Positions 1,055-64,000 of a DNA stretch of 64,000 nucleotides are shown here, piece by piece (the first letter of the stretch is position 1; every line of letters begins with the position of its first letter). Source of the DNA: Icerya purchasi (Eukaryota; Arthropoda; Insecta; Hemiptera; Monophlebidae); contig CM077115.1 in the NCBI GenBank assembly GCA_039619475.1, positions 413,362,557 to 413,426,556 of the forward strand, read 5' to 3'. Position numbers and translations under genes: made by a program. Below the pieces are notes generated by a model. It worked only from the letters and a program-made list of their open reading frames with translations, searched no databases and had not been told where the DNA came from.

Positions 1055-2609
1055 AAATTTACAGTTACACGGCATCAGTTCATTTTCCGTCTTTACAGTT
1101 CATTTAGTTCATCTCGATAATTTATTGTTTTTAAAATATTTCACTCTTTCTTTTTTTTTTTTTTTGATTTACAGGTTTGGTTTGAGGTTTATTTTCGTTT
1201 TACTTTATTTTTATTTACTTTGTTTGGTGGCTTGTTTATTTATTTTTTTAACTTCTTTTTATTATTTTTATTTACTGGCTGCCATTTTCTACTACTCTTG
1301 TCTGACCATTGGTTTGGTGGATTGTTTATTTCCTTTTTAATTATATTTTTATATACTGGCTGCCACTTTCTAATGCTCTCGTCTAACTGCTTTTATATTC
1401 TTTCATTTCAATTTACGTTCCAGTAGGAAAATCAAGGTATGTAATTTTTCATATTTAACATTTCTCCATTTTATTCAAATATAATTTAATTTCCATAACG
1501 GTTTAGCTTTATTGCCCAATGGAGATCAAATTATATGACGCGGTCTGTAAGCTGGTCTACTGCGATCTGATGGCATTTACGGAAGGATGTCATCAAATTT
1601 TACATTTTTCCTATTTTTTCTATATTCACATGAAAAAAGTACGCAGATTAAAAATCAATTCTGGGTAAGCGTTCGGATAGGCGGCACCAGTTCATTTTTG
1701 GTCATAATTTTAGTTCGTTTGTTTAGTTCATTTTTGGTCAATTTCAGTTCGTTCATTTCCGTTGTTATTCACGGTGGGTTAGTTCACCCACCGTGAATAA
1801 CAACGGAAATGAATGAACTGAAATTACGAATATGACGTGGAAAGAAGGGAAGTAACGTAACGATCACACGAGAAATAGAGCGAAAAATGAAATAAATTTA
1901 AAAAAAATGCCGCAAAAGTAGACAGGAAAAATGATACTTCGTGAAGGAAAAAAAAAGGAATAAAGTGTAAAAACCTGAAAAAAGGAAGAACCCGATGTTT
2001 AATGTAAAATTTGATGGCATCTTCTTCCACAAATGCCATCAAATCGAAGTAAACCGGCTTACAGACCACGTCACATAATTCGATCTCCATTGGGCAATAA
2101 AGCTAGAACGTTACGGAAATTAAATTATATTTGAATAAAATGGAGAAATGTTAAATATGAAAAATTACATTAATATGAAAAATATTAAATATGAAAAATG
2201 TTAAATATGAAAAATTACATACCTTGATTTTCTTACTGGAATGTAAATTGAAATGAAAGAATATAAAAGCAGTTAGACGAGAGCAGTAGAAAGTGGCAGC
2301 CAGTAAATAAAAATAAATAAACAAGCCACCAAACAAAGTAAATAAAAATAAATTAAAATGAATTAAAATGAAAATAAACCTCAAACCAAACCTGTAATAC
2401 CGAAATATAATTAAAAAGATCAAAAAAAAAAACCGAAATATAACTAAAAAGAAAATAAACCTCAAGCCAAACCTGTAATACCGAAATATAATTAAAAAGA
2501 TCAAAAAGAAAAAGAAAGAGTGAAATATTTTAAAAACAATAAATTATTGAGATGAACTAAATGAACTGTAAAGACGGAAAATGAACTGGTGCCGTGTAAC
2601 TGTAAATTT
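1055..2609. repeat. Fold-back (long inverted repeat) element
   Basis: The two halves are reverse complements. The outer end begins AAATTTACAGTTACACGGCA at 1055 and its complement ends at 2609. The centre is a tight hairpin around 1765-1800 made of TTCACGGTGGGTT and its complement. Further matching blocks sit at about 1440-1600 and 2000-2240. The right arm carries an extra 81-bp tandem duplication (2370-2510) and a short AT-rich triplication near 2160-2220. The hydrophobic ORFs on both strands are products of the T-rich and A-rich arms, not genes. A shorter relative with the same GGCACCAGTTCA start lies at 56058-57039, so this is a repeat family. No transposase is seen, so it is probably non-autonomous. 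Confidence 0.8.
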
Positions 2610-8864: not shown

Positions 8865-8870
8865 ACCAAG

Positions 8871-9236
8871 AGTAGTGTCTTTTTATTGCTTGTCAACCAG
8901 TGGGTGGGAGGGGGTGTTGTTATGAGGGGGGAAATATGCATTCGGTACCGCGATTCGGTTAGTTAATTAGGGTGGCGCGGTTCGCGGGGTTGAATTCCAG
9001 GCATTTTTTCGATGTTTTATTTTTATTTTTATTTGTTAACGGAAATATTTGAACGTTCCAGAACCGAACGAACCGTGATTATTATAATTATAATTATAAT
9101 TATAATTATAATTATTAATTATTATTATTATTATTTTTAACGGAAATATTTGAACGTTCCAGCAACAGGTTGCTAGCGGCGCGGCGTGCAGTGCCTTCTA
9201 CCATTATGTGTATGTATTATACAGGAGTCTATTTGT
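8871..9236 (+). repeat. Left terminal inverted repeat of the MAEL element
   Basis: Matches the reverse complement of 14147-14513 almost perfectly. It starts AGTAGTGTC and ends at ATTTGT, after which the two arms diverge. It contains an (ATTATA)/(ATT) stretch (about 9078-9135) and two copies of the word GGAAATATTTGAACGTTCCA. Near identity of the arms means a recent insertion or gene conversion between them. The 6-bp duplication lies just outside, at 8865-8870. Confidence 0.92.
9051..9063 (+). promoter_or_regulatory. Heat-shock-element-like site in the left inverted repeat
   Basis: GAACGTTCCAGAA fits the trimeric heat-shock factor site (GAA, two bases, TTC, two bases, GAA) exactly. It is mirrored in the right repeat at 14320-14332, and a further copy is at 9617-9629. 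Dimeric GAACGTTC forms recur near 9150. Binding or induction is inferred, not shown. Confidence 0.45.
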
Positions 9237-11340
9237 AATAATTGTAGCGTAATTTTTAATTTTAATTTTCGGGGTTTGGGAGGGGTAAAATTTTGGCGGA
9301 GTGTTAAAAACGTTCGAAACTCAACACTTAGAACCCAAATTTTGAAGGAATTTTCCGTTTCGTGCTCCGTTCCGGCATTTTTTTTTTTAAAAAATTTAAT
9401 TTTTAAGAAGAATATCTGATCGTTTCATCAATCGAATGAGGGCAGGCGGGTGTGCTGCTACGAGGGTGTAATATAAACGCGAGCGCACGGTTGTAACGGA
9501 AAAATATTTGAATGTTCCAGCAACTGGTTACGAGCTGCGCGGGGTGCAGGGTGAATTCTAGACGTTCATTCGATGTTTTTATTATTATTATTATTATTAT
9601 TTTAACGGAAATTTTTGAACGTTCCAGAACCGAATGAACCGTGATTTTTCGATGTTTTTGTTTATTTCTATTTTTAACGGAAATATTTGAATGTTCCAGC
9701 AACCGGTTGATGGCGGCGCGGATGCAGGGGGTGAAGTCTAGACGTTCGTTCGAAATTAACTACCCGATCATCTTCGCACACCCTGACACACCACCGATGG
9801 ATTCCTGATCGCGTTCGCTACGCTTTCACACACACACACACACACACGTCTAATATTTTTATTTCCAACGAATATTTTTAAATGCCACCCCCGAGAAATG
9901 GCGACTTTTAAGTGATGGTCAATTGCATCATCCAGACGGAAGATAGTTACATCGATCGTTTGTTCACGGCCAAATCTAGACGTGTATTATTTCAACCTGT
10001 TCGACTATCTCATTCATTTATACCCCTCGTTTTGTTCGGAGCGGCTGTGTTTGAGCGACATTGCTAAATACATTGTGATAGCAGGTGTTCGAGAGCCATT
10101 TTGAACATTATGTCTGAGAAAGTCTATATTCCCGCGATGTATAACGCTAATCACTATCATTAACTTTTTTTGTTATTTTCGAGAGTTTACATCAAAGAAT
10201 AGAATACTAGCTGTGCACTACACCACCGCATTTAATTTAGATTCAAACATCGTTCATGCTACATCGTTTTTCAAATTCGAAGCCTAAGTATAGAAATTTC
10301 AAAAATTACCCTAAGTATAATATTTAAACGCCTGAATCTAACCTAAGCACCGTTCACAACCTACACCTATAGACGATCCTGCATACATTTAAATCGACAC
10401 CGCGGCGATAGAGTACAAGTCGTTCCATTGCACACATCTTCTGCCATTAGTTTCCATATCATTCATAATATTATTTTCCACGTCTAAGTATTATAGAATT
10501 AGCTTAAGTATTTTTATATTTTTCCGTATTCTCCGATCCCATTGCAAAAGTGCACTGTCCATTCCTACACTTATATTTAATATAACGTTAGCCACCGTGA
10601 AAGCGCACGCACCGTTCCCGCGCACGACTCATTTGTTTAAACTACCATGTTTTTTCTTTCTTTCTTTTTTTTTTAATATTTAGAAGTCTAAGTATAATAT
10701 TTAAAGCTTGAATCTAACATAAGTCTCCGCTCGTCCTTTCCCACCTATAGTTGGATCCCACACATATATCCAACATAGCGTTAGCATCCGTGAAAACGCA
10801 CGCATCGTTCATTCGCGCTACCGCGATTTTTTTTTTTTTTTTTTTAAATATTTCGAAGCCTAAGTCTAATTATTTTAAAGCCAGCAACCTAAGTACATAT
10901 TTTACACTTCCAAACATTTCTTCCAACCGTTCATAATTTTTTATTTATTTTTTTCTGACTCTAAAAATAAATCTGTTGAAGTCTTCACCGCTATGAATGC
11001 ACACAGCATGTTGCCGCATACTCGTCTGCTGACGATAGTTTTCCTATCCATTCGTAATCATTTTTCAAGTCTAAGTATTATAGAATTAGCCTAAGTATAT
11101 TTTTATTTTCTTTCGTTATACAAACATTTTTTTCGAGATCTTTCGTGCTATATTTTTTCTCAGATATATTTACACACATGCAGGCAAATTGCCTTGCCGT
11201 TGATTTCGATCGTGCAACGCTGTCATTACGTCTGCTGGGATCTTACCCTTCGCATCTTCTTTTTGTAGAATCCATTTCGCATGTACACACTTACACAATC
11301 ATACTTAAGTCAAAGAACACCTGATACGTCATTTATCTGT
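9237..11340. repeat. Non-coding interior of the MAEL element, left part
   Basis: No coding ORF. From 9237 to about 9760 the sequence repeats a module built on GGAAATATTTGAANGTTCCA followed by CAACNGGTT and a GC-rich word (9490, 9604, 9677). From about 10270 on, a second module with CTAAGTATAATATTTAAA and ATTATAGAATTAGC recurs (10300, 10495, 10690, 11075). A (CA)n tract lies at about 9828-9847. The same modules in a different order occur at 60300-62460 in the second copy, so they are part of the element. Purpose unknown. Confidence 0.65.
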
Positions 11341-11666
11341 ATATATAACCAACTATCACCGAAGGAATGTGGTTTTTCTAGTGCACCCCTCGCATTTCAA
11401 AGGTCTCCATCGAGCTAGAAAATCGAACGGATCTGTTCAGGCAGTCAGTATTAGTGTTATGTTAAACGTGTGGAATTTGTTGAAGCTGTGCGCTTCACGC
11501 GTTATTAAAAAATTGACAAGAACGTTAAAGTCAATAATTTCATACGTTTTTTCTCTTTTTCTTTCTTTCTTTATTTTTTGTCTTTTTTCTCTCATTTTCA
11601 TCTTTATTTTTTTCTCTCTTTTTTTCGCTCTTTTTTTTAGTAAAAATATTAAAATAATAATCAAAT
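11341..11666 (+). promoter_or_regulatory. Conserved leader / probable promoter of the MAEL gene
   Basis: This block is well conserved upstream of the second MAEL gene (62466-62704), while the DNA around it is more diverged. The best-kept part reads GATCTGTTCAGGCAGTCAGT. It contains TCAGT (11445-11449), which matches the insect initiator consensus. A long pyrimidine tract then ends in TTTTTTTTAG at about 11640, 27 bases before the start codon, and looks like a 3' splice site. A 5'-UTR intron is therefore possible; I could not fix its donor. Confidence 0.5.
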
Positions 11667-12668
11667 ATGAATAACAATACCGAATCGATTGATATTAAAG
11701 CCGACGAATTTATTCAGAATTCATTTTCGAGTGATAGTGGCTCGCATACGATTTCGTCACCTCCGACACCGCAATATGATGGTTATACATCAGAAGAATC
11801 CACATCTTTTGTGCGTAAAGTCGTTGGTCCTGTATTATTATCAGAACAAGTGGATATAACGGAATATTTTTTAGATATCAGCATCCATATAGATTGTGAT
11901 TATAGTTTTCCAGTAACCGAACTAGCAATGATTGATATGTCTGGCGGGAAGTGTTTGCATACACTGTATAAGCCAAGCAGAGCATGGCATGCATCAAAAA
12001 TGCCACATTTGCGATGTTCTTCGGTGAGGCATTACTTGAAAAACCCTTCATTATTTCCCTGTCGGGAAGAAATATTCGTGGCACGCGATATATTCACGAT
12101 ATTATCTCAAAAACCGAGAGCTCGCATATATATTTTAACAGTATATGCTAAACTTACACTAATGGAACTTAACGAAAAGTCTGAATTGTTGCATGACTTG
12201 GACTATGAAATCGTTAATATGGATCAAGTTTTTCGAGTACCTAGTGTTGATGATCTACATGAAGAATACTTTGGTATAAGCAATTTGATAACCTGTAAAC
12301 ATCATAATGAGAATGAAAGTTTTCATTGTGCAGCGAAAAACGTTATGATGATGAAGGCCTGGTACGATCATGTTATCCATCCGCTGAAGCTTATGAATAA
12401 TCTCAATATAAATGATTTAAGACAGTTGTTCATTACGGCCACCAAAGAAATGATAATTACATTATTTCCCAGTTGCGTTGGAGACATTTATGCATTTCTA
12501 CCAGATAGATTAAAACAGAATGATACGATAAAACCACTTCTACCATGTTACGAGCATGAGTATGATGAAGAATATTATATCGATGATGGTACATTGCGAC
12601 AGAGTACTCGAAATTGTATAAAAGTAAAAGATTGTATCGATTGTCAATGTAAAATTATCACAGATTAG
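11667..12668 (+). CDS. MAEL (Maelstrom)-domain protein, transposon cargo, copy 1
   Basis: An intact 333-residue ORF from ATG. Residues 1-65 are Ser/Thr/acid-rich and probably disordered. Residues about 66-280 fit the Maelstrom domain, an RNase H-like fold. Glu85 lies in VTELAMIDMSGG, where MAEL proteins have an E in a PAE-hydrophobic strand. Cys210, His213 and Cys221 form C-x2-H-x7-C in CKHHNENESFHCAA, the zinc-binding part of the animal ECHC signature. KPSRAWHASKMP follows the first strand as the PG-like turn region does in the family. The tail (294-333) is acidic, then Cys-rich (C317, C323, C326, C328). Animal Maelstrom is a germline piRNA-pathway factor with an N-terminal HMG box; that box is absent here. 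The gene sits alone inside a Polinton-like element. Function in this setting is unknown; suppression or diversion of piRNA silencing is a hypothesis. I assigned the family from motif and order, without a search. Confidence 0.8.
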   Translation: MNNNTESIDIKADEFIQNSFSSDSGSHTISSPPTPQYDGYTSEESTSFVRKVVGPVLLSEQVDITEYFLDISIHIDCDYSFPVTELAMIDMSGGKCLHTLYKPSRAWHASKMPHLRCSSVRHYLKNPSLFPCREEIFVARDIFTILSQKPRARIYILTVYAKLTLMELNEKSELLHDLDYEIVNMDQVFRVPSVDDLHEEYFGISNLITCKHHNENESFHCAAKNVMMMKAWYDHVIHPLKLMNNLNINDLRQLFITATKEMIITLFPSCVGDIYAFLPDRLKQNDTIKPLLPCYEHEYDEEYYIDDGTLRQSTRNCIKVKDCIDCQCKIITD

Positions 12669-14146
12669 AAATTCATTATTTCGATCGTTTAACAATTTTG
12701 CGTATATATTTTGTATATTAATGTATATATTTTTCCCCAATCATCCGCTCGTTCGTTTTTTATGTTTTATTAATCATTTGTAAATATATTTTTATACATA
12801 TGAAAATTTTGTTTGTATATATTTGTGTATATTTTTTTCCCTCGATATGTTTCGTTCTATTATATATATTTTTTTCTTAATTATTTTTCATCTTTTTCCA
12901 CTCCTTTTCAATTCCGTTTATTTAATTATTTCTCTATCTCTCTTTCCCCCTCTTAACTTAAAGTACTGGTAATGATGAATATTACAAAAATCTGAACCAG
13001 TTGTGTAAAGTGTACATATAATTATTGTCTAATTTTCGAATATAATCCCACATAATTTGTTCATATCTTTTTAGATTAAAACATTATATTTTTTATTCTT
13101 TCTATAACAAACGAATCTAACTGTTCAACTTTTTCAGGTACATCACGTACATCAAGTATTTTCCGCAACTGCGTGAATTTTCATTAATTTGTAAGATACA
13201 GCTTCAGATCCTGAGTGTTCTCTCAAAATTTTTAAAATTAAATATTTTTCGCATTATATATGAGTTCGTCTATGAGGTGTTGGTCACTGTATAGAGAGAG
13301 AAGGAGAAAACCTGGTAGTTCACAAGGCATAGCATGTTCGAAGAAAAAACGCGATAGCAGGAGCAGATCAGGAATTGCATCCACCGACACTAGAGTCCCT
13401 ATAGTTCACAATATTTTTCTCTCTGTATTATAAAATTAGCTCAAGTATATTTTTATTATTTCGTTACGCAAAAATTTTTCAAATCTTTTGTAATATGCAT
13501 TGCACACAAATGTACTCTGCAGACAGCTGTTGCTTCATTACCACGAATATATCTCACAGTTTTTCTGGAAATTGTAGAGAAATTCTCTTCGCTCAATTCT
13601 TCCAAGGTGATCTATTTTCAAAATTCAAATCGTGCGTAATTATTTTTTCCAAAATTAATCATCACTTTACAAATTATTAACGCATTTTTCCGATCGTACA
13701 TAATATTTTTTATTATTATTTTATTATGTTTCCGTAAAAATTCTGGATATTATTTGCATTAATCATTGAATTTCACATTATACCATATATCCCCCATCAA
13801 ACAATTTATTTTTAATCTATCATACCTATTACGTTATCACTTAAATTTTCCTCAATTTGCAAATGTATTATTCTATACATGTAATACGACTCCACTCCTT
13901 ATAAGTACATTATTAAATAATTTTTCTTTATTTCCCATACATGGCAAAGACAATGAAATTACAGCATCTATAAATGTGTACTCTGTACGCCTCCACTAAC
14001 CTATCACGAATTTTTTAAATTAGCCCAAACGTACTATTTTTCAATATCAAAAATTATCTATTCACTTTTACCACTTTCCCGATCATCTCTATAATTTATT
14101 TTCTATATAATAACTAACCGACGAAAACGCTTCATTCGTTTTTTAC
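12669..14146. other. 3' flank and non-coding right interior of the MAEL element
   Basis: The first ~300 bases after the stop match the 3' flank of the second copy (shared CATTATTTCGATCGTTTA and repeated TGTATATAT words), probably the 3' UTR. The rest has no gene. A module with ATTATAAAATTAGCTCAAGTA recurs at about 13430. The short ORFs at 13495 and 13766 have no family features. Confidence 0.6.
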
Positions 14147-14513
14147 ACAAATAGACTCCTGTATAATACATACACATAATGGTAGAAGGCACTGCACGCC
14201 GCGCCGCTAGCAACCTGTTGCTGGAACGTTCAAATATTTCCGTTAAAAATAATAATAATAATAATTAATAATTATAATTATAATTATAATTATAATTATA
14301 ATAATCACGGTTCGTTCGGTTCTGGAACGTTCAAATATTTCCGTTAACAAATAAAAATAAAAATAAAACATCGAAAAAATGCCTGGAATTCAACCCCGCG
14401 AACCGCGCCACCCTAATTAACTAACCGAATCGCGGTACCGAATGCATATTTCCCCCCCTCATAACAACACCCCCTCCCACCCACTGGCTGACAAGCAATA
14501 AAAAGACACTACT
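14147..14513 (-). repeat. Right terminal inverted repeat of the MAEL element
   Basis: Reverse complement of 8871-9236 with a one-base length change in a C run and a substitution near the tip. The outermost bases read AGACACTACT, followed at once by the second copy of the ACCAAG duplication (14514-14519). The heat-shock-like site is at 14320-14332. Confidence 0.92.
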
Positions 14514-14519
14514 ACCAAG

Positions 14520-16698: not shown

Positions 16699-17648
16699 AA
16701 ATGATTTTACAGCGACATCAAAAATATCAATAAATTCATAATCGTCATCGGGTAATTTCAGAAAAAAAAAACAGTTGTTAACTTACAATTTTACTTGTAC
16801 TACTGCCGACAACTGTTTGTTTTTTTCCCCCTTGTTTTGGTTTTCCCGTGGGATTGTCATGCAGCAACAGATGATTTTACCCACTAACATAGTAATTATT
16901 ACAAGGAATGTAATCTGACTAAGTATAATTCCAAGGATGCAGAAACAATGGCAATCAACGTCGATAAATGCAAAACGTATGCATCCTAAAAAGAGGCGGA
17001 ACGACATTGCCGAAGGTAAGAACAAAAGAAGTTAACAGCCCACCACCATGGCCACATCTTCAATTACACAGAGTACCGACGGACAAAGGAATCAGCCTAC
17101 AATTAAGATATAAGAAGAAACACGACGGGATGTTTGAAAAGCAGTTAGAGTCATCAAGCACCAAAGCGATGTATGTAAAACGTAGCGCTTAGCGTGCTGT
17201 AAAGAGTGATCCGAAAGTTCGACAATTTTCTCCACCACTATAAAGCATATAATTCTTAATTATGACAAAAATGATTATGGCGACGACTGCGAAAACAGCG
17301 CATCCTGTTAAGAAAAAACGAACAGAATTCACGCCCAACGCTACGGCCATACTGGAACAGCAGCGCCCACGGTGTGACCGGGGGAGTTCACTATCTAACA
17401 TTAGGGCCGCAAATGTACCGACACTGTTGTTAATAGTTAAACTGCAGTTCGTTGAATCGGTTTGGTTTCCGTTCGGTAGTGTCTAGATTTCTGTGATTAT
17501 TGATAAGCAGATTTGTTTTGACTTTCAACTGAATATGGGGCGGTGCGAGTTACACGTGTGATAACAGTACCACTTGTTCTTATCGTTACTTCTCACGCTT
17601 TAAGCTTCACTCATTTATTTCTCGTTACCGCGTATTTCGTTTCTGTTT
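16699..17648 (-). repeat. Left arm of a ~950-bp inverted duplication
   Basis: Reverse complement of 21563-22514 with only scattered substitutions and small length changes in A/T and C runs. It contains an antisense copy of the exon-like membrane-protein ORF (start at 17007 on the minus strand) and of the ORF at 17401-17189, plus the first bases of the following intron with its GTAAGT donor. It lacks exon 2, so this arm looks like the duplicate and the right arm the source locus. Confidence 0.88.
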
Positions 17649-17727
17649 ATTAATATTATTTTTTTTGTTTTTATTAGTAGAAACAGTCCTTATTAAAATT
17701 TGGTTAGTTTTTTCTAGGTTACATTAA

Positions 17728-19308
17728 CCCTCAATTAGTCTCGCGCGGATGCCATATGTCATCCTCTGTTTTTTTTTCTAGTTATAACTTTCAATATATA
17801 GAAAATTGAACATTACCCGTTCAGGTATCTTCTATGTAAACCTTAGCAATCACATTGCAATAATCAGTTAAATCATCGTAGTGTGTATACTTTTAATAAA
17901 GTGCATTAAACATGCTTGTATGGCGATTGTCATCTTTGCGCGAGCAACCAGAAAAGTATTTTTTTCCAGACTGAATTTTTTCGCTGACTTTAACTTCTTT
18001 CTTATTTCGGTTATTTATTGCGTAATAAGAAAGACGTTTTGTGTTCTGTTTATATATGTTATTTATGCGTAAGTAAAAATCGCTTTAGATTTTTACTGCG
18101 ATGTACATATGAGATTTGATAATATCCATGACGGAGATTGCCGAAAAGCTATAGATAAACTAGCTGCAATAAGAGAAATACACGAATCTGATTCGTGAAT
18201 AATTTTCGCGAATACTTTACTCCGTCAGAGTACTTAACGGTAGATGAATGGTTATTGGCATTTTATGGAAACTGTCCATTTCAACAATATATACCCAGCA
18301 AGCCAGCAAAATATCGCCTGAAGGTGTTTGCTTGAGCCGATGTAAATACAGCTTACACGCTAAGTTTAGAGCTGTATGTTGAAAAGCTGCCTAGTGGACG
18401 TTATTTTGTGAGCAATTCTGCTCAAGATATTGTAACTAGGCTGGTTCAGCCAGTTGAAGGAACAAATAGAAATCGTATTACTGGCGATAACTGGTTCTCT
18501 AGTTTGTCATTAGTGAAGATACTAAAAGATAATGAAATACTGACTTATGTTGGAACCGTATGTAAAAACCAAGGTGAAATTCCTAAAGAGTTTTTGCCGA
18601 GTAAAAGCAGAACAGAAAACTCTCGGATATTCGGATTTCAAGAAGATTGTGTACGTTGGTATCTTATTGCTTAAAAAAAATAAATAAGGTGGTTCTGTTA
18701 CTACTATTCTCAATGCACTTTGATGACACCATAGATGAAGCAACTGGTAGTGCTATAAAATATGAAATTGTTACATTTTACAACATATTATTAGTTTATG
18801 GAAAAGAATCTTCGACAGAAATTCAAAAACCCTCCGGATCACGCGGAAGATGCTATATTTGCGGTCATAAACCGAATAAAACCACATAGAACTAGTGCAT
18901 AAAATGTAAAAATTGGGTTTGTCCGGATCAGTTAAAACACATTTGTTTGAATTGTTTAGAAAACTAGTTCATTTTAGAGTAAGTCTTTGTAGTACCGTGT
19001 TAGTCATCTGAAAAGACGAAATACATCCTTAACTGCTAATTTAAAACTAAAATGTTCTAAAAAGACCTAATAAAATAACATATAAGAAAGTTATGAAATT
19101 ACATTAGAATTATGATTATACTTTTTTCTACACTGTTTCTTCTAAGGAATATTTTGATAATTTAAAATTTTAATACAGCATAAATATATTGTAGAAGAAA
19201 TTTTTAAAGAGTAAAATTTTGAAGATACAAATCTATTTGTAAAAATGGATGACATATGTCATCCGCGCGACTAACGATTAAACTATTTTGTGCGCGACTA
19301 ATGGAGGG
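17728..19308 (+). mobile_element. Decayed piggyBac-type DNA transposon
   Basis: The left end is TTAA (17724-17727) followed by CCCTCAATTAGTC. The right end is GACTAATGGAGGG (to 19308) followed by TTGA, a probable one-base decay of the second TTAA. CCC...GGG tips on TTAA targets are the piggyBac signature. Both ends carry a subterminal palindrome, GGATGACATATGTCATCC at 19247-19264 and a one-base variant at 17747-17764. The left end lacks about 25 bases present at the right. The element lies in the loop between the two arms of the inverted duplication. Confidence 0.85.
18100..18965 (+). pseudogene. piggyBac transposase remnant
   Basis: Plus-strand fragments follow the DDE_Tnp_1_7 order. A TVDEWLLAFYGNCPFQQYIP block (about 18238-18300) is followed by SKPAKYRLKVFA, a stop, and ADVNTAYTLSLELYVEK. 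Then NRITGDNWFSSLSLVKIL and TYVGTVCKNQGEIPKEFLP lie in an open stretch (18408-18674). The C-terminal zinc-binding end has GRCYICGHKPNKTT and later CPDQL and CLNCLEN (to 18965). Several stops and frame shifts are present and the N-terminal third is missing, so the protein cannot be made as is. It accounts for the two short ORFs at 18408 and 18647. Confidence 0.85.
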
Positions 19309-21562
19309 TTGAACAACAATAATTCCGTTTCTTCAACGAAGCACATTCGCGCAAATGACACACATATTGCATATTGTTAATGTATCGGCGCTTGTAATGA
19401 CAGTTTTTACATCGTTTCAGGTACAGCTGCTAAAATGAGTCGTGCCCATTCCGTGCATATTTTACACGTTGACTGAATTATTTCCTTAAATTTCATCGCT
19501 TAATTTCGCTACAATTAGCCGTCATCGGCGGTTCACCGAATGAAATCATTTAACGCATTTTACTTGATTGTAAATAAATGCGATCTGAAATTCACTACCG
19601 AGACCAACCTCGAAGAAAAATAACCGATTATTGTTTTGCATTTTTGAAATAACGGCTACGTTTAAAAATCCTGTTTAACTTGACAGGCACAAAAACCGGA
19701 ACTTGTTGCCAGATCAACGATACCTCGGCGCGGTTCAACACGGTAAAAAGAATATCGATTTTTTTAAATTATAGAAAGACAATGCTAGTGGAAACATCCG
19801 CGAAAATATAAGAAATATCGATGTTCGAAATATCGTTCGTAACCGCGAAACGTATCATTCTACCGAATGCGGCTGCTCGAAATTTTAGTGCCTATTCTTC
19901 TACTAGAACGAACCGGGCGATTCGCTTAAATAAAACTCTCTTACCGTGCACGCTTTTGTCGTGCTATTTTCAGTTTTGTAATCCGGCGATCCGTTACAGT
20001 TCTAGAAAGGGAAAAAGCTATATACACGTCTGTCACAGGTGTAAAAATGACTCTGCCTATTGTAAAATAAATTTGTCAGAGTTGCCGAAAAATTTTTAAA
20101 ATGGCCCCACGCGCGTCTACGGACGCGGGAATAACATCTTCAGCTGCGCTTTCGGATGAAGCGCTAATTCATTTGTTGAAGGCGAGTTCGGATGTTTCCG
20201 ACGCAAAACAGCAGAGATGAACTAGGGGCTGAATAGAGACTACAAGAAATCCGGAAAGTCGTGAACGATAAGAACAGATGAATTTTACGATATCCGCCGT
20301 GAGCGGAAAGAGAAATAATTAAGATAATTCTCGGAGGGGAGAACGGAGTTCGTGCATCGGTTGAACTTCATCTTCTACTAACTCATTCGCTCTTCCGTAC
20401 TAGCTTGAAACGGACGACGGACGCAGTTGGGCCGAAGAGCTCGCTGTATCTGCGAACGGTAGCGCCTGGCACTCTAGACGGAGTAGTTGCCGACATGCTC
20501 GCACTATAACGAGAAATCTCCGTAATTACCAACGGTTTAAGATGTTAAAAGTTGATATACGAGCGCCGTTATAAACTCTGCCATGTCGCGAATTGTCAAC
20601 TTTGTCGACAACAATACGCATTAGTAACATGTTACGCAATCAACTTTCCTACGGCGCAGATCATTATATCCTCGCGGTATTAATCTGTGAGCCTTTATCC
20701 TTGCTCTTAAAAGGTATACTCTACCGAGCTGTGTTATCGGAAAATTCGAAATTACAAAGACGCGTCGAGTTGCATTTGAAAATTGCGAAGAATTACGCCA
20801 ATCGTCGAACAAGACTACTGCACGCACGGGGCTAATTCGCTGCTACACACGGTTTGGCTGCATCAGTTTGTTACACCCGTTTGGAAGTACAGCGCTAACA
20901 ATTATAAAAGCGAACGTACCTAACGATTTTCTTCGTACATATGTAATATCCGTTTCAGCATATTTGTCTTTCGTCTAATCAATTATAACTGCAAGTTGAA
21001 ATTCGAATTTTTCGGGCCCTGTAAGCGGTTCAAACGTGTAATTTAATTAATGAAAGTCAGTAATGCAAAGATAATTTCTCTGTCTCTTCTATCTACATCA
21101 ATAACAAAAAAAATTTAAATGCTCGAACGAAATTACAGTTGCCGGAGATTTATAGTTAACTTTTTTCGCAGAAAGCCATGTCAAAATTATAAAACAGATC
21201 TGTGTATTGTCCATTTAATACTAAAATGTAGACACATATATACGCCTATTTAATGACTGTAACCATTTATACGATAACAATGAACTACCGTTTAACGCTT
21301 TTGAACCGAACACGTTTTTTTTTTTTTTCTTGAACACTTGAGCCCTTAATGGACCCAGACTCTAGATCTTTATTAGTTATAGTCTCTACGAGTATAAATC
21401 GTTATCTATAGCGAATTATAATTTATTTATGAGATTACCTGATCTGTGGAAATAGATTGTGTTTATTTTGATTGTTTAGCTTCTCTTATGATGATGCTGG
21501 GAGACCGCTACGATATGCGGCATAACTCCGACATTCTTGCAGAATGTCTGGTACCGATAGTG
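19309..21562. other. No gene recognised
   Basis: Loop DNA between the piggyBac element and the right arm. It is less AT-biased than its surroundings at about 20100-20900. ORFs at 19821 and 20593 show no known domain or conserved pattern. A T-run with a LINE-tail-like follow-on (TTGAACACTTGAGCCC) is at about 21315-21345. Confidence 0.45.
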
Positions 21563-22514
21563 AAACAGAAACGAAATACGCGGTAACGAGAAATAAATGA
21601 GTGAAGCTTAAAGCGTGAGAAGTAACGATAAAAACAAGTGGTACTGTTATCACACGCGTAACTCGCACCGCCCCATATTCAGTTGAAAGTCAAAACAAAT
21701 CTGCTTATCAATAATCACAGAAATCTAGACACTACCGAACGGAAACCAAACCGATTCAACGAACTGCAGTTTAACTATTAACAACAGTGTCGGTACATTT
21801 GCGGCCCTAATGTTAGATAGTGAACTCCCCCGGTCACACCGTGGGCGCTGCTGTTCCAGTATGGCCGTAGCGTTGGGCGTGAATTCTGTTCGTTTTTTCT
21901 TAACAGGATGCGCTGTTTTCGCAGTCGTCGCCATAATCATTTTTGTCATAATTAAGAATTATATGCTTTATAGTGGTGGAGAAAATTGTCGAACTTTCGG
22001 ATCACTCTTTACAGCACGCTAAGCGCTACGTTTTACATACATCGCTTTGGTGCTTGATGACTCTAACTGCTTTTCAAACATCCCGTCGTGTTTCTTCTTA
22101 TATCTTAATTGTAGGCTGATTCATTTGTCCGTCGGTACTCTGTGTAATTGAAGATGTGGCCATGGTGGGGTGGGCTGTTAACTTCTTTTGTTCTTACCTT
22201 CGGCAATGTCGTTCCGCCTCTTTTTAGGATGCATACGTTTTGCATTTATCGACGTTGATTGCCATTGTTTCTGCATCCTTGGAATTATACTTAGTCAGAT
22301 TACATTCCTTGTAATAATTACTATGTTAGTGGGTAAAATCATCTGTTGCTGCATGACAATCCCACGGGAAACCCAAAACAAGGGGGAAAAAAACAAACAG
22401 TTGTCGGCAGTAGTACAAGTAAAATTGTAAGTTAACAACAATTTTTTTTTTTCTAAAATTACCCGATGATGATTATGAATTTATTGAGATTTTTGATGTC
22501 GCTGTAAAATCATC
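21563..22514 (+). repeat. Right arm of the ~950-bp inverted duplication
   Basis: Mirror of 16699-17648 across a ~3.9-kb spacer. The plus strand carries a 70-residue ORF with one membrane segment (21810-22022) and the exon of the partial gene described next. Only this arm continues into sequence with an acceptor and a second exon. Confidence 0.88.
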
Positions 22515-23880: not shown

Positions 23881-23885
23881 ATATA

Positions 23886-24188
23886 TATAAACGTTTTTTA
23901 TATGAATTAACTTCCACTCGATTTAACTATAAAAGTAAATTGTTTATTTATTAATGATACAATACAATACAATTAAAATAAAGGTAATATTATTTTAACA
24001 ATTCTTAAACTTACCTATAAAAGTAAAATCGATTTTGAAAGTGTTTAGTTTGTAATTTAAATCAATAATATAAAATCATGAAGTAACAAACCAAATAGTT
24101 TTATTTACTAATGATTTTTCTTTTTTAGCTTTTTACTGTTTACTGTTTATTATGTTAAACAAAATGGAAGCAGTGCAACCATTTTACA
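23886..24188 (-). repeat. 3' LTR of the gypsy element
   Basis: 303 bp. On the minus strand it begins TGTAAAATGG right after the polypurine tract and ends ...CGTTTATA. It matches the other LTR except for one ATT unit. Confidence 0.93.
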
Positions 24189-24205
24189 TCTCCCCTCCCC
24201 CCCCA
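24189..24205 (-). promoter_or_regulatory. Polypurine tract
   Basis: On the minus strand a G/A run (GGGGGGGGAGGGGAGA) directly abuts the 3' LTR start TGTAAAATGG. This is the expected place and composition for the plus-strand primer. Confidence 0.85.
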
Positions 24206-24264
24206 AAATTGAAATCTTCTTCAATCAATAAACGATTGAAATATAGTACTAATAAATAACTAAC

Positions 24265-27264
24265 TTAATTTTCAATATCATTATGAGGAATTAGTTTACT
24301 ACTATGAAAAAAATTTGCTTCCTTGCGACTCTTTCCACAGTCAACTTCATATATTGTGTTTGAAATCTGACGAATGATCCTAAATGGACCACTACGAATT
24401 TCATCTAGTTTGTTACGGTTTAATTTATTTCCTTTCTCAATGAAGACTAATTCTCCTTCCTTAAAGTTGTATTTTTTTCTATTTTTATCGATTCGTCTCT
24501 TATTGATTTCAAAATTTTTTATTGAATTTATAATTGCTTGTTCTCTATCATGTTTTAAATTTCGAATTTCTCTAAATTCATTTGGGACTATTGTTGATTC
24601 TTCACCATAAAGTAAATATGATGGTGAAAATCTTGTTACACTGTGCGTTGTTTGATTATATTCATTGGTACATTCAGCTGCTATCTTTGACCAAGCTCTT
24701 TTCTTTCCGCTGTTCATTTTGCATCGTATCCTGTTTAGTAATGTTTGATTTAAACGCTCATTTAATCCATTAGATTCTGGATTATCTACAGATGTAAACA
24801 TAAGTGTTATATTCCTTTTTTCTAAATAGTTTTTAAGTTCTTTTGAATTAATACCGGCATACTGATCGGACAAAATTGTACCTATTTGGTGTTCTTTAGG
24901 CAGTTGATCAATTAATTTTATGTAATCTTTTGCACTTTGACCTTTTGAGGTGGATATAAAGGCATATCTTGAGAAATGATCAACAAGAATATGCAAATAT
25001 TTTTTTGAAGACCGATTACTTCCAAACCCTCCAACTGAATCCATAGACATAATTTCGTAAGGTTCTTTTGCTGGACCCAGTTTTGACAATAAACCAATTT
25101 TCTGGCACCTTCGGGATTTATTTTTTAGACAAATTTCGCAATTGCTGCAAAATTGTTTAATGCTATTATCCATATTCTTGAAATAATAGTATGGTCTAAT
25201 TTTTTCAATTAGATGATTAACACCGATGTGACCATAGTATTCATGTATCTGTTTTATTAATTGTAATCCAAATTGTTGTGATATGAAGATTCGTTGTCTA
25301 TTTTTAAGATATTTAAAAGAAATCTCTCCTTTTTTCACTATTTTTTTTGAATTTTGGATTTCTTCTCTATTAAATTCCTGATCTTGAATGATTTGTTCCA
25401 TTTTTACCATATTTATAACTGGTAGTACGTCTTTTGTATTTTCAAAATATTCTAAGACTGGATTTCTTGATAAGGAATCAGCTTCCACATTTTCTTTTCC
25501 TGGTGCATATGTGATCTTAAAATTATATTGCGAGAGATAGTATACTAAATCTCCTAGCTCCTCATCTGTTCGTGCTTTTACTTTCAATGTTTCAAGTGGT
25601 TTATGATCCGTTATAACACTAAACGGTCGACCTATTAGCCAATGTTGCCAATAAATAATAGCTTCACGGATTGCTAGACATTCTAAATATATTGGTTTTT
25701 TCTTTTTTTGCACAGGAGTTAATTTTTTTGAAAAATAAGCAACTGGATGTAACATCCCATCCTCTTGAGGTTGTTTAAAGATTGCTCCTACTCCTTGAAT
25801 ACTAGCATCAGTATAAATATAAACTTCACTATCAGGATTATAGATCGCTAATATTGGACTTGAACATAAATAATTTTTAACAGTGCTAAATGCCTGTTCA
25901 CAATCTTCAGTCCAATCAAATTTTACATTGTTACGCAATAAATTATGCAATGGTTCTAATTGTTTTGCTGCATTTTCTAGATATTTATAATAAAAATTAA
26001 TTTTTCCAAGAAATTGTCTTACATTTTTTTTTGTTTTAGGTCTTTGAAATTCATGAATAGCTCGAAGATTATCCTTATAAGGCCGTATTTTATTCTTTTC
26101 AATAATATGTCCTAAATATTTTATTGAATTTTTTGCAAAGTCACATTTCATTAATTTTAATCGGAAACCCTCTTTAATGATTGCGTTTAATAATAACTCA
26201 AGGTGTAGTAAATGTTCTTTAAATGTTTTTGAAAAAATTAGGATATCGTCAATATAATTTATACAGAAATCATTTAATTTATGTTTTCTAATTATATTTG
26301 CTAAAATTCGTTGAAATATCGATGGCGATATCTTTAATCCAAATGGCAGGCATATCCATTGCCAATGACCATTTTGTGTAACAAATGCTGTTTTTTTTCT
26401 GTCTTTTTTTCTAATTGGAATTGACCAAAATGCTGAATTTATATCTAGAGCTGAAAACCAATTACAGTTTCCTGCCTTCACCATAATATCTTCAATTCGA
26501 GGAAAAGGATAAGGTTCTGGGACAACTAATTTATTTAAGTCCCTAAAATCGACACATAAACGTGACCTACAGTTCTCCTCTTTTTTATATGCCAATGTTA
26601 CTGGCGATGCAAACGGTGAACTTGTATCTTCTATTAGTCCAGCTTCTAACAGTTTTGTTATTTGTGATTCAATCTCTTTTTGATCTGGGATTGAGCATCT
26701 GTAAGGTTTTTTTGCAATATATTTTTCTTCTATTAATTTTATTTGTGCTTCCTCGTTTCTTACCATTCCAACATCATATTTATTTTTAGCGAATATTGAT
26801 TCATATTTAATTATAAGTTCATTAATTTTGTTTTTTTTCTCTACATCTAAATGATCAAGATATGCATAAAAGCTTTCAACATTTATATATTCGTTAAAGT
26901 TTACAGTTTTTATTATTTTTATGTCTTCTTTTAATCCTGAAATTTGTTCCATCTTTTTTTCATCTAATTTTTGAAAAATCTTTAAATTTTCATTTTGAAT
27001 TAACTGAAATTTCTTTATAGCATCCAAACCGAGTAATAGATCAAATGAAAATTTGTCATTTTTAATTATATAAACATCTAAAACATCTTCGATTTTATTG
27101 ATTCTTAAATGTAAACGTGCCCGGCCATTCGTGAAATTTACACCACTAATTGTTTTAAAGATATCTGGGCTCCGAATTATTTTCGTTTTTAGGTCATTCA
27201 TGACTTTTTGATTTATTAACGTTATGTTTGAGCCACTATCATAAACACCTTTAACTTTCTTCAT
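24265..27264 (-). CDS. pol: Gypsy-type Pol polyprotein (protease, RT, RNase H, integrase)
   Basis: 999 residues from the first Met, though translation probably enters upstream by frameshift from gag. Aspartic protease: YDSGSN (D9). RT: D274 in ALDINSAFW, LPFGL at 306, and YIDD at 337-340. RNase H: D486 in YTDAS, E528, D553 in ITDHK, and D596. Integrase zinc domain: H674, H679, C706, C709. Integrase core: D742, D800, E836, giving D-D-35-E. The C-terminal part, with KYNFKEGELVFIEKG and SGPFRIIRQI, is the usual SH3-like GPY/F region. All catalytic residues are present and there are no internal stops. It makes cDNA in cytoplasmic particles and inserts it into the genome. The pol order with IN last and the lack of env fit a non-errantivirus Ty3/gypsy lineage. 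Confidence 0.97.
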   Translation of the reverse strand: MKKVKGVYDSGSNITLINQKVMNDLKTKIIRSPDIFKTISGVNFTNGRARLHLRINKIEDVLDVYIIKNDKFSFDLLLGLDAIKKFQLIQNENLKIFQKLDEKKMEQISGLKEDIKIIKTVNFNEYINVESFYAYLDHLDVEKKNKINELIIKYESIFAKNKYDVGMVRNEEAQIKLIEEKYIAKKPYRCSIPDQKEIESQITKLLEAGLIEDTSSPFASPVTLAYKKEENCRSRLCVDFRDLNKLVVPEPYPFPRIEDIMVKAGNCNWFSALDINSAFWSIPIRKKDRKKTAFVTQNGHWQWICLPFGLKISPSIFQRILANIIRKHKLNDFCINYIDDILIFSKTFKEHLLHLELLLNAIIKEGFRLKLMKCDFAKNSIKYLGHIIEKNKIRPYKDNLRAIHEFQRPKTKKNVRQFLGKINFYYKYLENAAKQLEPLHNLLRNNVKFDWTEDCEQAFSTVKNYLCSSPILAIYNPDSEVYIYTDASIQGVGAIFKQPQEDGMLHPVAYFSKKLTPVQKKKKPIYLECLAIREAIIYWQHWLIGRPFSVITDHKPLETLKVKARTDEELGDLVYYLSQYNFKITYAPGKENVEADSLSRNPVLEYFENTKDVLPVINMVKMEQIIQDQEFNREEIQNSKKIVKKGEISFKYLKNRQRIFISQQFGLQLIKQIHEYYGHIGVNHLIEKIRPYYYFKNMDNSIKQFCSNCEICLKNKSRRCQKIGLLSKLGPAKEPYEIMSMDSVGGFGSNRSSKKYLHILVDHFSRYAFISTSKGQSAKDYIKLIDQLPKEHQIGTILSDQYAGINSKELKNYLEKRNITLMFTSVDNPESNGLNERLNQTLLNRIRCKMNSGKKRAWSKIAAECTNEYNQTTHSVTRFSPSYLLYGEESTIVPNEFREIRNLKHDREQAIINSIKNFEINKRRIDKNRKKYNFKEGELVFIEKGNKLNRNKLDEIRSGPFRIIRQISNTIYEVDCGKSRKEANFFHSSKLIPHNDIEN

Positions 27265-27303
27265 CTTATTTATTAATACATTTAATGTTATAAGTGGGGT
27301 AAA

Positions 27304-27327
27304 TTTCTCCGGGCGGACTAGTTTTTT
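27304..27327 (-). promoter_or_regulatory. Programmed -1 frameshift site joining gag and pol
   Basis: The last gag codons on the minus strand are CAA AAA AAC followed at once by the TAG stop. This places the heptamer A AAA AAC in the zero frame exactly as the X XXY YYZ rule requires. A one-base backward slip opens a frame that runs without a stop through the 50-odd bases between the ORFs into pol. The stop directly after the slip site is a common arrangement. A downstream structure was not modelled. Confidence 0.85.
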
Positions 27328-28484: not shown

Positions 28485-28496
28485 TCAAAATCGATT

Positions 28497-28796
28497 TATA
28501 AACGTTTTTTATATGAATTAACTTCCACTCGATTTAACTATAAAAGTAAATTGTTTATTTATTAATGATACAATACAATACAATTAAAATAAAGGTAATA
28601 TTTTAACAATTCTTAAACTTACCTATAAAAGTAAAATCGATTTTGAAAGTGTTTAGTTTGTAATTTAAATCAATAATATAAAATCATGAAGTAACAAACC
28701 AAATAGTTTTATTTACTAATGATTTTTCTTTTTTAGCTTTTTACTGTTTACTGTTTATTATGTTAAACAAAATGGAAGCAGTGCAACCATTTTACA
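28497..28796 (-). repeat. 5' LTR of the gypsy element
   Basis: 300 bp, equal to 23886-24188 minus one ATT unit. Between its inner end and the gag start codon there are about 12 bases, and no tRNA-complementary primer site of the usual form is visible there. Confidence 0.93.
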
Positions 28797-36816: not shown

Positions 36817-36860
36817 AACTTAAAGGGAAATTAAGACATGTTTTAATTTCCCTTTAAGTT

Positions 36861-60300: not shown

Positions 60301-62465
60301 CCGATAGTTCGAACCAATTAAAAACTAACCCAAGTATATTATTTAATACCTGAAACTAACCCAAGTCCCCGCCCACCCCTCCTGTCTACAACATTACCGC
60401 AATTTTTCAAAATTTAGGGCCTAAGTATGGAAATTCCAAATTTAACCCAAGTATACTATTTAAAACCCTGTATTTAACCCAAGTCTCCGCTCGCCCTTCC
60501 CACGATCCCGCGCATATATCCAAACATTGCGATAGCCGCCGCGAAAGCGTACGTTCCTTTCCCATGCACCCGTCGTTCGTTCCCGATACTGCGATCTTTT
60601 TTTTTTTTTTAAATATTTCGAAGCCTAAGTATAAAAAATTCCAAAATTATCCTAAATATATTTTTTTCATTATCACATTTCCCCGTTTGTACAGGTAAAT
60701 GTGGAAACACACACGCCGTCCCCGCGCATATATCCATCATAACATTAACCACAGTGAAAGTGCACACCCATTCCCACACATCGCGCCCTTTACTATCATG
60801 TGTATGTATTACACACATGCCTTTGCGTGTAATATATGTAGCATACTTTTTAATTTTCATTTTTCGAGGTTGGGAGGGGTAAAATTTTGCCGGAGTGATA
60901 AAAACGTTTGAATCTCAACACTTAGAACCCAAAATTTAAAGGAATTTTCCGAGTCGTGCTCCGTTCCGGCATTTTTTTTTTAAATTTTATTTTTAAAGAA
61001 AATATTTGAACGTTCCATCAGTCGAATGAAAGCGGGCGAGTGTGCTGCTACGAGATGTATTATGTAAGCGCGACCGCGGCTGTACTAGAAATATTTAAAT
61101 GTTCCAGCAACTAGTTGAAACTGTCACCAGGTGAGGTGAATTCCAGTCGTTCGTTTTGAAATTAACCAGCCGATCATCTATGCACACTCTCACACGCCAC
61201 CGTTAGAAACCTGTTCGCGATCGCTACAAGTTCATACACACGCACGTACACACCACCACTTGATAAATATTTTTTCGTCTTTTTCCGCTTCCGATCTTAT
61301 TTGTAATCCGTTGATTCTTTTTTTATTATTTTTCCGTATTCTCCGTTCATTGCAAAAGCACACCATCCATTCATGCACACATATCAAGCATTATGTTAAC
61401 CTCTACAAAGCTACACTGTACTATTCCACACACGCTCCGGTCGCCGTCGAAATAAACGCCGCGATATCACTCCCACACACACACATACACACAACCACTT
61501 CATATATATTTTATTTTCGAGTCAAATTATTATAGAATTAGCCTAAGTATAATTTTCTTTTACATTTCTGTTTACTTCTTCCGAACGTTCATAATTTTTA
61601 TATTTTTTTGTTTCTCCGATTCTAAAAATAAATCTGTCAATGTATTAGCCACTCTCTCCCGCGCACAGGATGTTCCCTCGCACTCATCTGCTACCTATCG
61701 TTCTTATTAATTTTTTTCGAGTCTAATATTATAGAATTAGCCTAATTATATTTTTTTTTTCGCTTCCAATCATTTCCTCCGACCGTTGATAATTTTCTTA
61801 TTTTATTTTTTCTCAGGTTCTAAAAATAAATCCATTGTCATCTTCACTAGTATGATTGCGCACATATCTTCTGCCGGTATTTCTCATATTGTTCATAATA
61901 ATTTTTCATGTCTATGTATTATGGAATTAGTCTAAAATATATTTTTTCCCCTCTAAAGACTTTTTCCGAACGTAAGTATTCAAACATTAATTCGAGTATA
62001 TTTTTATTTAACGCTGTTTCATAATTTCCCTCTCCCTTATCCACCCTACACAAATTTCAATTATTTTCTATTATTTTTCATGAGTACATCCCCCTGAAAC
62101 TACAGTGAAACCACACCAAACATTCCCACGCACCATATAGATTTTAACATCATTCGTAATAATTCTTTTCGAGTCTATTAGTTTAAGATTATTCTATTTT
62201 TTCAAACTCTAAATATTTTTTTTTTCAATATCTTTCATATTATATTTTTTTCCTCAATATGTCCGCGTACCCTCATAGTGCAAAGGTACTCTGCTTATAT
62301 CCTTGCATGCATGTTGCCATGTCGTTGATTTCGATCATGTGTCAAGGTCATCGAGTCTGCCCGAATCTTCCATGTCATATCTTTTGTAGAAAAACGGTTC
62401 ATATGTTCACACCTACACACAAACACCCATAACCGAAAGAACACCTCTCAACTTCGTTCATCTGC
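60301..62465. repeat. Non-coding interior of the second MAEL element copy
   Basis: Carries the same modules as 9237-11340 in a partly different order. CTAACCCAAGTATA blocks are at 60340-60480 and an AAATATTTCGAAGCCTAAGT block at about 60612. A stretch at 60790-61130 matches 9195-9545 (GGGAGGGGTAAAATTTTG, CAACACTTAGAACCCAAA). ATTATAGAATTAGCCTAA modules are at 61530, 61730 and 61918. The terminal inverted repeat of the first copy was not found to the left, so this copy is rearranged or its end is diverged. Confidence 0.65.
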
Positions 62466-62704
62466 GTATGTAACCAGCTTTCACCAAAGGAATGTGGTTT
62501 ATCTGATACGACTCAACATCTTCAAAGACTTGCATCGAGCTAGAATCTCGAAAGGATCTGTTCAGGCAGTCAGTATTAGTGCTATGTCGAACGTGTAGAA
62601 TTTGTTGAAGCAGTGTTCTTCACGCATTAATAAAAGTTTGCTCTAACGTTAAAAGTAATAATTTTCTACATTTTTTAGTAAAAAGTTAAAAATATTATTC
62701 AAAC
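62466..62704 (+). promoter_or_regulatory. Conserved leader / probable promoter of MAEL gene copy 2
   Basis: Matches 11341-11666, with GGATCTGTTCAGGCAGTCAG and GTATTAGTGCTATG kept, including the TCAGT initiator-like word (about 62567-62571). It lacks the long pyrimidine tract of copy 1 but still ends in TTTTTTAG before the start codon. Confidence 0.5.
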
Positions 62705-63700
62705 ATGAATAACAACATTGTTTCGAAAGTCGACGAATTTATTCAGAATTCATTTTCGAGTGATAGTGTCACGCATACAACTTCATCACCTCCATCACAG
62801 CAATCAGATGATGGTTATACAGCAGAAGGATCAAAATCTTTTGTACATAATATCATTGGTCCTGTATTATTAACAGAACAAGCAGATATAGCGGAATATT
62901 TTGTAGATATCAGCATCCATGTAGATTGTGATTATGGTTTTCGAGTAACTGAACTAGCAATGATTGATATGTCCGGTGGAAAGTGTTTGCATACGCTGTA
63001 TAAGCCAAGCAGAGCATGGCATGCATCAAAAATGCCACATTTACAATGTTCTTCGATGAGTCATTACTTGAAAAATCCTTCATTATTTCCCTGTCGGGAA
63101 GAAATATTTATGGCACGCGATATATTCACGATATTATCTCAAAAACCGAGAGCTCGCATATATATTTTAACAGTATATGCTAAACTTACACTAATGGAAC
63201 TTAATGAAAAGTCTGAATTGTTGAGTGATTTAGACTATGAAATCGTTAATATGGATCAAGTCTTTCGACTACATAGTATTGACAATCTACATGAAGAGTA
63301 TTTTGGTATAAGCAATTTGATAACCTGTAAACATCATAATGAGATTGATAGTTTTCATTGTGCAGCGAAAAACGTTATGGTGATGAAGGCCTGGTACGAT
63401 CATGTTATCCATCCGCTGAAGCTTATGAATAATCTCAATATAAATGATTTAAGTCAGTTGTTCATTACAGCCACCAAAGAAATGATAATTACATTATTTC
63501 CAAGTTGTGTTGGTGACATTTATGCATTTCTACCAGATAGATTAAAACAGGATGATACGATAAAATCACTTCTACCATGTTACGAGCATGAGCATGATGA
63601 AGAATATTATATCGATGATGATATATTGCGACAGAGTACTCGAAATTGTATGAAAGTAAAAGATTGTATCGATTGTCAATGTAAAATTCGCACGGATTAA
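62705..63700 (+). CDS. MAEL (Maelstrom)-domain protein, copy 2
   Basis: An intact 331-residue ORF, about 85% identical to copy 1 by eye. Differences cluster in residues 1-80 (Ser/Thr-rich, with a 3-residue gap and a 1-residue insertion). The domain core is nearly unchanged. Glu83, Cys208, His211 and Cys219 keep the MAEL signature, and the C-terminal Cys-rich tail is conserved. As in copy 1 there is no HMG box. Both copies are open although the surrounding DNA has diverged more, which suggests selection on the protein. The right end of its element lies beyond the window. Confidence 0.8.
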   Translation: MNNNIVSKVDEFIQNSFSSDSVTHTTSSPPSQQSDDGYTAEGSKSFVHNIIGPVLLTEQADIAEYFVDISIHVDCDYGFRVTELAMIDMSGGKCLHTLYKPSRAWHASKMPHLQCSSMSHYLKNPSLFPCREEIFMARDIFTILSQKPRARIYILTVYAKLTLMELNEKSELLSDLDYEIVNMDQVFRLHSIDNLHEEYFGISNLITCKHHNEIDSFHCAAKNVMVMKAWYDHVIHPLKLMNNLNINDLSQLFITATKEMIITLFPSCVGDIYAFLPDRLKQDDTIKSLLPCYEHEHDEEYYIDDDILRQSTRNCMKVKDCIDCQCKIRTD

Positions 63701-64000
63701 CTATTCATTATTTCGATCGTTTATCAATTTTGTGTATATTTGTATATATTTTTGTATATTAATGTATATATTTTTTTCCCTAATCGACAGTCCGTTCGTT
63801 TTTTGTGTTTTGTTAATCATTTTGTAAATATATTTTTATACATATTTAAATTTTATTTCTATATATTTACATATATTTTTTCTTTGCCTTCAATTCCCTC
63901 CATATCTTTCATTCTATTGTATATATTTTTTCCTAATTAATTTTAATCTTTTTTCGCTCCTTTTCAATTCAGTTTATTTAACTATTTAACTATTTCTCTA
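63701..64000. other. 3' flank of MAEL copy 2
   Basis: Follows the 3' flank of copy 1 (CATTATTTCGATCGTTTA, repeated TGTATATAT words, CCGTTCGTTTTTTGTG) to the window edge. The ORF at 63740 is a TA-rich artefact. Confidence 0.6.

Follow-up and report, generated by a model that had tools for sequence, protein, structure and literature searches.

What would a mobile element do with a gene that resembles part of the machinery by which animals silence such elements? Maelstrom is an animal factor that silences transposons, and the metazoan protein binds RNA. The question is raised by a 5655-bp unit at positions 8865-14519 of the window, a stretch of 64,000 nucleotides of Icerya purchasi DNA, in which two inverted repeats enclose a single open reading frame (ORF) of 333 amino acids (aa). 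In our best explanation, which we regard as reasonably probable, the unit is a non-autonomous Maverick that carries a diverged version of a capsid-adjacent gene, and the product is a Maelstrom-type, zinc-stabilised protein of the DnaQ fold that probably binds RNA and has a role in the germline.

Ends of the unit and its gene-bearing relatives

The unit consists of the sequence ACCAAG, an inverted repeat, the interior, the second inverted repeat, and ACCAAG again. Its features, with the basis of each assignment in brackets, were as follows.

8865..8870, no strand: left target duplication ACCAAG, 6 bp (sequence)
8871..9236, plus strand: left terminal inverted repeat, 366 bp, with the tip AGTAGTGTC (repeat comparison; genome matches)
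9036..9721, plus strand: sub-terminal repeats around TTAACGGAAATATTTGAACGTTCCAG (families D1 and D3), two within the terminal repeat and the others past its inner edge
10267..11110, plus strand: non-coding leader with degenerate CTAAGTAT-type repeats (repeat analysis)
11667..12668, plus strand: intact Maelstrom-like ORF, 333 aa (ORF call; selection; family comparison)
11919..11921, plus strand: codon for E85, which aligns with ligand E of the Maelstrom zinc site (alignment)
12294..12329, plus strand: codons for C210-x2-H213-x7-C221, which align with ligands C, H and C of the Maelstrom zinc site (alignment)
14146..14147, no strand: junction between the interior of a palindrome arm and the terminal repeat of the opposite side, the presumed deletion point (comparison with palindromic relatives)
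14147..14513, minus strand: right terminal inverted repeat, 367 bp, with the end GACACTACT (ACTACT) (repeat comparison)
14514..14519, no strand: right target duplication ACCAAG, 6 bp (sequence)

The two terminal repeats are 99.455% identical across 367 aligned columns, the tips of the element read AGTAGT...ACTACT, and the 25-base tip occurred twice in the window versus not at all in 100 shuffles. An earlier note on this DNA had described the repeats of 366 and 367 bp, the perfect ACCAAG duplication, the 5'-AG tips and the one 333-aa ORF, and recomputation confirmed all of them. The TTAACGGAAATATTTGAACGTTCCAG-type sub-terminal repeats are possible protein-binding sites. Besides the 333-aa ORF, the unit contained no ORF of at least 120 aa starting with ATG, GTG or TTG, and the ORF scan found none of the genes for PolB, integrase, ATPase and capsid on it. 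Because these core genes are missing, the unit is non-autonomous; non-autonomous Mavericks as such are expected. The whole window gave no match in Rfam at the gathering threshold or in a tRNA scan.

According to excerpts of PMC8097293, vertebrate Mavericks have (AGT)2//(ACT)2 tips, 6-bp duplications, and terminal repeats of 46-1447 bp. The tips and the 6-bp duplication of the unit match this signature, as do its repeats of hundreds of bases, whereas its size of 5.6 kb, its single gene and its lack of any core gene set it apart. The assembly searched for further copies comprised 1,103,370,081 bases in 41 contigs, with the window lying in contig C1 (601.7 Mb). For the terminal repeat, 40 long matches, out of 299 candidates, were scored and were 87-100% identical. 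Among the matches listed, eleven inverted pairs were 15-24 kb apart and one was 40 kb apart, and the 5.6-kb pair of the window was the sole short one. The additional copies with 6-bp duplications that the earlier note had proposed to look for were thus found, and the duplication was perfect at 10 of the 13 end pairings (12 elements).

Larger elements with the same ends carry more genes, such that the earlier description of the ORF as the only gene is correct for the copy at 8865-14519 but not for its relatives. One stretch, L015, terminates in the repeat of the window element (97.5% identical). It contains a 1245-aa ORF, pieces of which matched Endonuclease_7 (E 8e-5) and DNA_pol_B_2 (E 3e-4), both below the Pfam cut-offs; we take this ORF to be PolB-like, partly from its look and partly from these matches. 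The adjoining stretch L021 carries an rve integrase (E 4.5e-12) with a sub-cut-off chromodomain match, a Pox_A32 ATPase (E 7.6e-9), a phospholipase A2-like ORF, and a double-jelly-roll capsid protein (E 3.9e-77). This Maverick is known from L015 and L021, and its left end lies outside the DNA fetched. Gene-bearing Polintons therefore do share the ends of the unit, and the earlier call of a Maverick/Polinton-like element is supported by both the end signature and the gene content.

Two points speak against so straightforward an assignment. First, three of the 13 end pairings lack a perfect duplication: in one, the element at C1:441.77 Mb, five of the six bases agree, and two have reverse-complementary flanks. 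Second, the PolB and protease matches in the larger elements fall below the Pfam cut-offs.

The pairings with reverse-complementary flanks are L080/L081 (C1:538.03 Mb) and the inner pairing of L072/L073 (C1:474.18 Mb), where the outer pairing is perfect; with such flanks, the inverted duplications at these two loci extend into the neighbouring DNA.

L021 also contains a 324-aa ORF, P0121, which was matched by the window ORF at 25.5% identity (E 1.6e-22). At C1:441.77 Mb, both terminal repeats are present, and the element carries a P0121-like ORF (97%), an ORF resembling the adenovirus protease (E 0.0013, below the cut-off), a capsid match that is interrupted by one stop, and a fibre-like ORF that resembles that of L021 in a comparison by eye. 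Positions 1524-2504 (minus strand) of L021 hold a coiled ORF that gave a YadA-stalk match, and coiled ORFs were also present in L028; those of the gene-bearing Mavericks may be fibre proteins.

To quantify the gene family, the best of the first-look candidates were scored, i.e., 121 of 3519 for the window-type ORF, 123 of 3015 for P0121, and 101 of 810 for the capsid gene; because only the best were scored, open frames are over-represented and all counts are lower bounds. The P0121-like copies were 62-100% identical. For 83 of the 101 capsid copies scored, the same strand carried a P0121-like copy at a distance of 121-328 bp downstream (median 155 bp), and 83 of the 123 scored P0121-like copies account for these capsid-adjacent ones. 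Random placement yielded a mean of 0.015 capsid-adjacent copies and a maximum of 1 in 200 trials. The window-type gene forms a second branch, with copies that were 86-100% identical and lacked an internal stop in 100 of 121 cases. Judged by sequence comparison, the window gene is a diverged copy (about 25% identity) of a Maverick gene that resides next to the capsid gene. The idea that a mobile element had captured a silencing domain was thus not supported in that form, since the gene is resident in Mavericks and was retained while the rest was lost.

Likeness of the product to Maelstrom

Motifs, alignments and a fold model point to a distant Maelstrom/DnaQ-type domain as the predicted product of the ORF. 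Animal Maelstroms coordinate zinc via the residues E, C, H and C (ECHC), as described in excerpts of PMC4408791. The ORF contains E85 and C210-x2-H213-x7-C221, and the same spacing was found in 84 of the 111 motif-bearing Maelstroms (119 were examined). The ECHC motif was present in all 30 copies fetched. An open-frame copy in L016 (2722-3714) has F in place of C210, which is perhaps an early step of decay.

When the ORF was aligned using MAFFT, E85, C210, H213 and C221 fell into the Maelstrom ligand columns in all three modes; for P0121, the E was missed in one mode. Among 60 column-shuffled controls (one MAFFT mode), the CHC residues were co-aligned once and the E ten times. An alignment of 37 rows, including 31 Maelstroms, had E85, H213, C221, H238 and P239 as invariant residues, and C210 was absent in one row. 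With a hidden Markov model (HMM) of Maelstrom, two copies from the window, the 333-aa ORF and a second ORF described below, outranked 1000 shuffles and one reversed sequence on the stretch with the CHC motif. An HMM of the element proteins placed real Maelstroms, and none of 600 shuffled sequences, at ranks 1-25, with scores of at most 6.3 bits. Of 119 Maelstroms, 71 had the pattern E...S...G...P...CHC, as did 8 of 50000 shuffled versions of the window ORF and none of 50000 of P0121, but the pattern was composed after the ORF had been seen and is not an independent test; its CHC portion alone was matched by 2985 of the 50000 shuffled window ORFs. The fold model had a DnaQ/Maelstrom fold, and the best Foldseek match was Maelstrom 9nhc_F (E 5e-4), a partly circular result, as Maelstroms made up 31 of the 37 alignment rows. 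The catalytic residues look replaced, and the protein is therefore predicted to be an RNA-binding pseudonuclease.

Several results weigh against this identification. PF13017 gave no match at E<=10 with the whole ORF or with pieces of it in Pfam, nominally the very outcome that the earlier note had listed as speaking against its MAELSTROM domain; the ECHC ligands, their spacing, the co-alignment and the modelled fold speak for that domain. The Maelstrom HMM scores of the window copies were just 6.7 and 6.4 bits, and P0121 was not reported in this test. With hhalign, the CHC stretch only was covered (P 0.013 and 0.023, probability 2-3%). The fold model was built with the 31 Maelstrom rows, and its TM-scores versus 9nhc_F were just 0.31-0.39.

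Other comparisons yielded little or nothing. Pairwise alignments to three Maelstroms were weak, about 1-3 standard deviations over shuffles, and a fold model from an alignment of the two own copies alone had a pLDDT of 31. The homologue search with the ORF returned 408 candidates, none of them at E<=0.01, and both copies as a profile returned 1588, none at E<=10. No relative was found in IMG/VR (with the ORF and P0121) or in GTDB contigs, no related chain among the PDB chains by sequence, and no match in NCBIfam.

The ORF product thus resembles metazoan Maelstrom in the order and spacing of ECHC, in the modelled DnaQ fold and in the apparently replaced catalytic residues, but it has no PF13017 match, the Pfam search of the ORF revealed no HMG box, its identity to 31 animal Maelstroms is 12-17%, and it is encoded on mobile elements. 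Two further systems have related features. ORF3 of long terminal repeat retrotransposons of bdelloid rotifers is DnaQ-like, and a Maelstrom-like Cys-His-Cys motif was noted in it (excerpts of PMC5408684). Like the window ORF, it belongs to a mobile element, to the exonuclease superfamily and to proteins with this motif; it differs in that it lies on retrotransposons, is described as DEDDy with intact residues and, in these excerpts, has no capsid linkage. The exonuclease of the arenavirus nucleoprotein has an ECHC zinc site on a DnaQ fold and is tied to suppressed innate immune signalling (excerpts of PMC7968707). It is a viral parallel to the window ORF in this zinc site and fold, but it is an active DEDD nuclease and belongs to RNA viruses.

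The product could also be an accessory of the virion or of replication that has a DnaQ-like fold and is unrelated to silencing, in which case the likeness to Maelstrom would be confined to the fold and the zinc site. The linkage to the capsid gene favours such a use, and we consider it a serious possibility, albeit not a probable one. However, the gene persists in elements without capsid genes, and its product has the ECHC ligands of Maelstrom at the Maelstrom spacing.

Retention of the gene in palindromic relatives

The window contains a second copy of the element, which had been overlooked in the earlier note.

~60320..64000, plus strand: second, older copy that continues beyond the end of the window; left terminal repeat absent (sequence comparison)
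62705..63700, plus strand: ORF of the second copy, 331 aa, 87% protein identity to the 333-aa ORF (ORF call; alignment)

The ratio of non-synonymous to synonymous substitution rates (dN/dS) between the two window copies was 0.39 (bootstrap 0.24-0.67). Compared in 200-bp steps, the coding part was 90-96% identical versus 47-66% for the leader (9791-11390). Among distinct window-type copies, dN/dS was 0.27-0.48, with bootstrap upper bounds below 1; for the window ORF versus L011-type copies, the upper bound was not below 1. By this pattern of substitutions, the 333-aa ORF is seen to behave like a real gene. The second copy represents an older subtype, and its downstream part (L018) is 93% identical to the L014 element over 4.5 kb. 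The L014 element has a young repeat at its own left end and an interrupted ORF, and it looks like a mosaic.

Ninety-six of the 121 scored window-type ORFs formed 48 inward-facing neighbour pairs with a median spacing of 12.5 kb (one of the 48 spacings is off by 1 kb). In all 48 pairs, the two members agreed in the presence or absence of a stop. Twelve pairs were compared; the ORFs were identical in 11 of them, two of which have a common stop, and differed by one base in the remaining one. In 5 of the 12 pairs, an ungapped comparison of the surrounding 3-4 kb yielded 449-1046 differences, which are probably due to indels. Two elements are near-perfect palindromes, L011/L012 with arms of 7959 bp (99.99% identical) and L019/L020 with arms of about 9.6 kb (99.4% identical). 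Each arm of both contains a window-type gene and a 329-aa ORF that resembles, by eye only, the integrase-adjacent ORF of L021, and the four window-type ORFs are all identical. Such arms of the relatives, at least 8 kb, contrast with the vertebrate Maverick repeats of at most 1447 bp in the excerpts of PMC8097293. The equality of the arms suggests that one may have been copied from the other during replication, e.g., if a linear, protein-primed genome folds back on itself. Up to about position 14146, the window element corresponds to one palindrome arm (93.6%), and its remainder to the final 366 bp of the other arm; it would therefore most simply be an internal deletion of a palindrome.

The gene might be a mere passenger, selected only in an unseen autonomous Maverick lineage, while the small copies are too young to have decayed and gain no benefit from it. 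Recent spread is clear from the high similarity of several copies and from the four identical ORFs in two elements; moreover, scoring the best of 3519 candidates favours young copies, and the search for an autonomous element with a window-type gene was not exhaustive. Nevertheless, we find this explanation unlikely, because dS reaches 0.25 among the window-type copies with dN/dS still at 0.27-0.48, the coding part outlasts the leader, both arms keep the gene in 48 of 48 pairs, and the PolB-bearing elements examined carry a gene that is just 25% identical.

A recent capture of the host's own Maelstrom gene by the window element would account for the zinc-ligand motif and the fold likeness, but it was rejected as highly improbable in view of the low identity to the 31 animal Maelstroms, the failure to find an HMG box, and the broad presence of the gene in Mavericks, with divergence steps of 62-100%. 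Least credible of all, and likewise rejected, is that the ORF is the own transposase of a one-gene DNA transposon with 6-bp duplications: one-gene elements with terminal repeats usually encode their transposase, and an RNase-H-like fold with a C(2)H motif would suit one, but no Pfam transposase family matched at E<=10, the ends are Maverick ends, an rve integrase is present in a larger element with the same repeat, and the homologue sits beside a capsid gene.

Neighbouring elements and proposed use of the gene

Further elements are present in the window. The region 23883-28797 (minus strand) contains a retrotransposon that we presume to be Gypsy-like from the look of its frames; direct repeats of about 305 bp flank open frames of 999 and 388 aa, and given the 98.7% identity of the repeats and the open frames, it is probably a young insertion. 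At 16701-22513, inverted repeats of 950 bp (98.7% identical) surround a 112-aa frame (18336-18674), which we take to resemble a piece of a piggyBac transposase. Short palindromes that resemble miniature inverted-repeat transposable elements, 74-99% self-complementary, are located at 36716-36961, 40728-41060, 42584-43014 and 58742-59143.

In the explanation that we prefer, the 5.6-kb unit would be an internal-deletion derivative of a Maverick/Polinton that kept both ends and one gene. The integrase and polymerase of Mavericks with the same ends would be supplied in trans, and the small protein would be produced in germ cells and bind RNA there. Two uses can be envisaged. The protein may act as a decoy or blocker that blunts or diverts small-RNA silencing, which is the use we prefer, or it may be an RNA- or virion-linked accessory. 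Elements without capsid genes have retained and doubled the gene, which favours the first. An anti-silencing role of a Maelstrom-like protein is plausible. A more specific version, which we put forward tentatively and regard as rather unlikely, is that a Maelstrom mimic encoded by the capsid gene's neighbour binds silencing RNAs or partners in the Piwi pathway, and that palindromic, non-autonomous cheaters amplify this gene, with two copies per element, as a self-serving means of anti-silencing.

In the open-licence literature, we found no report of a Maelstrom-like gene that is linked to the capsid gene in insect Mavericks or is the sole gene of deletion derivatives. Palindromic Mavericks with identical genes in each arm offer a handle on the replication of these elements and on how their repeats stay equal. 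Should the protein prove to interfere with silencing by small RNAs, the machinery that keeps an animal DNA transposon silent would have a look-alike encoded by the transposon itself. Virus-like Mavericks and deletion derivatives of these would both have kept this look-alike, and the suspected arms race between transposons and the pathway of Piwi-interacting RNAs would become testable with one defined protein.

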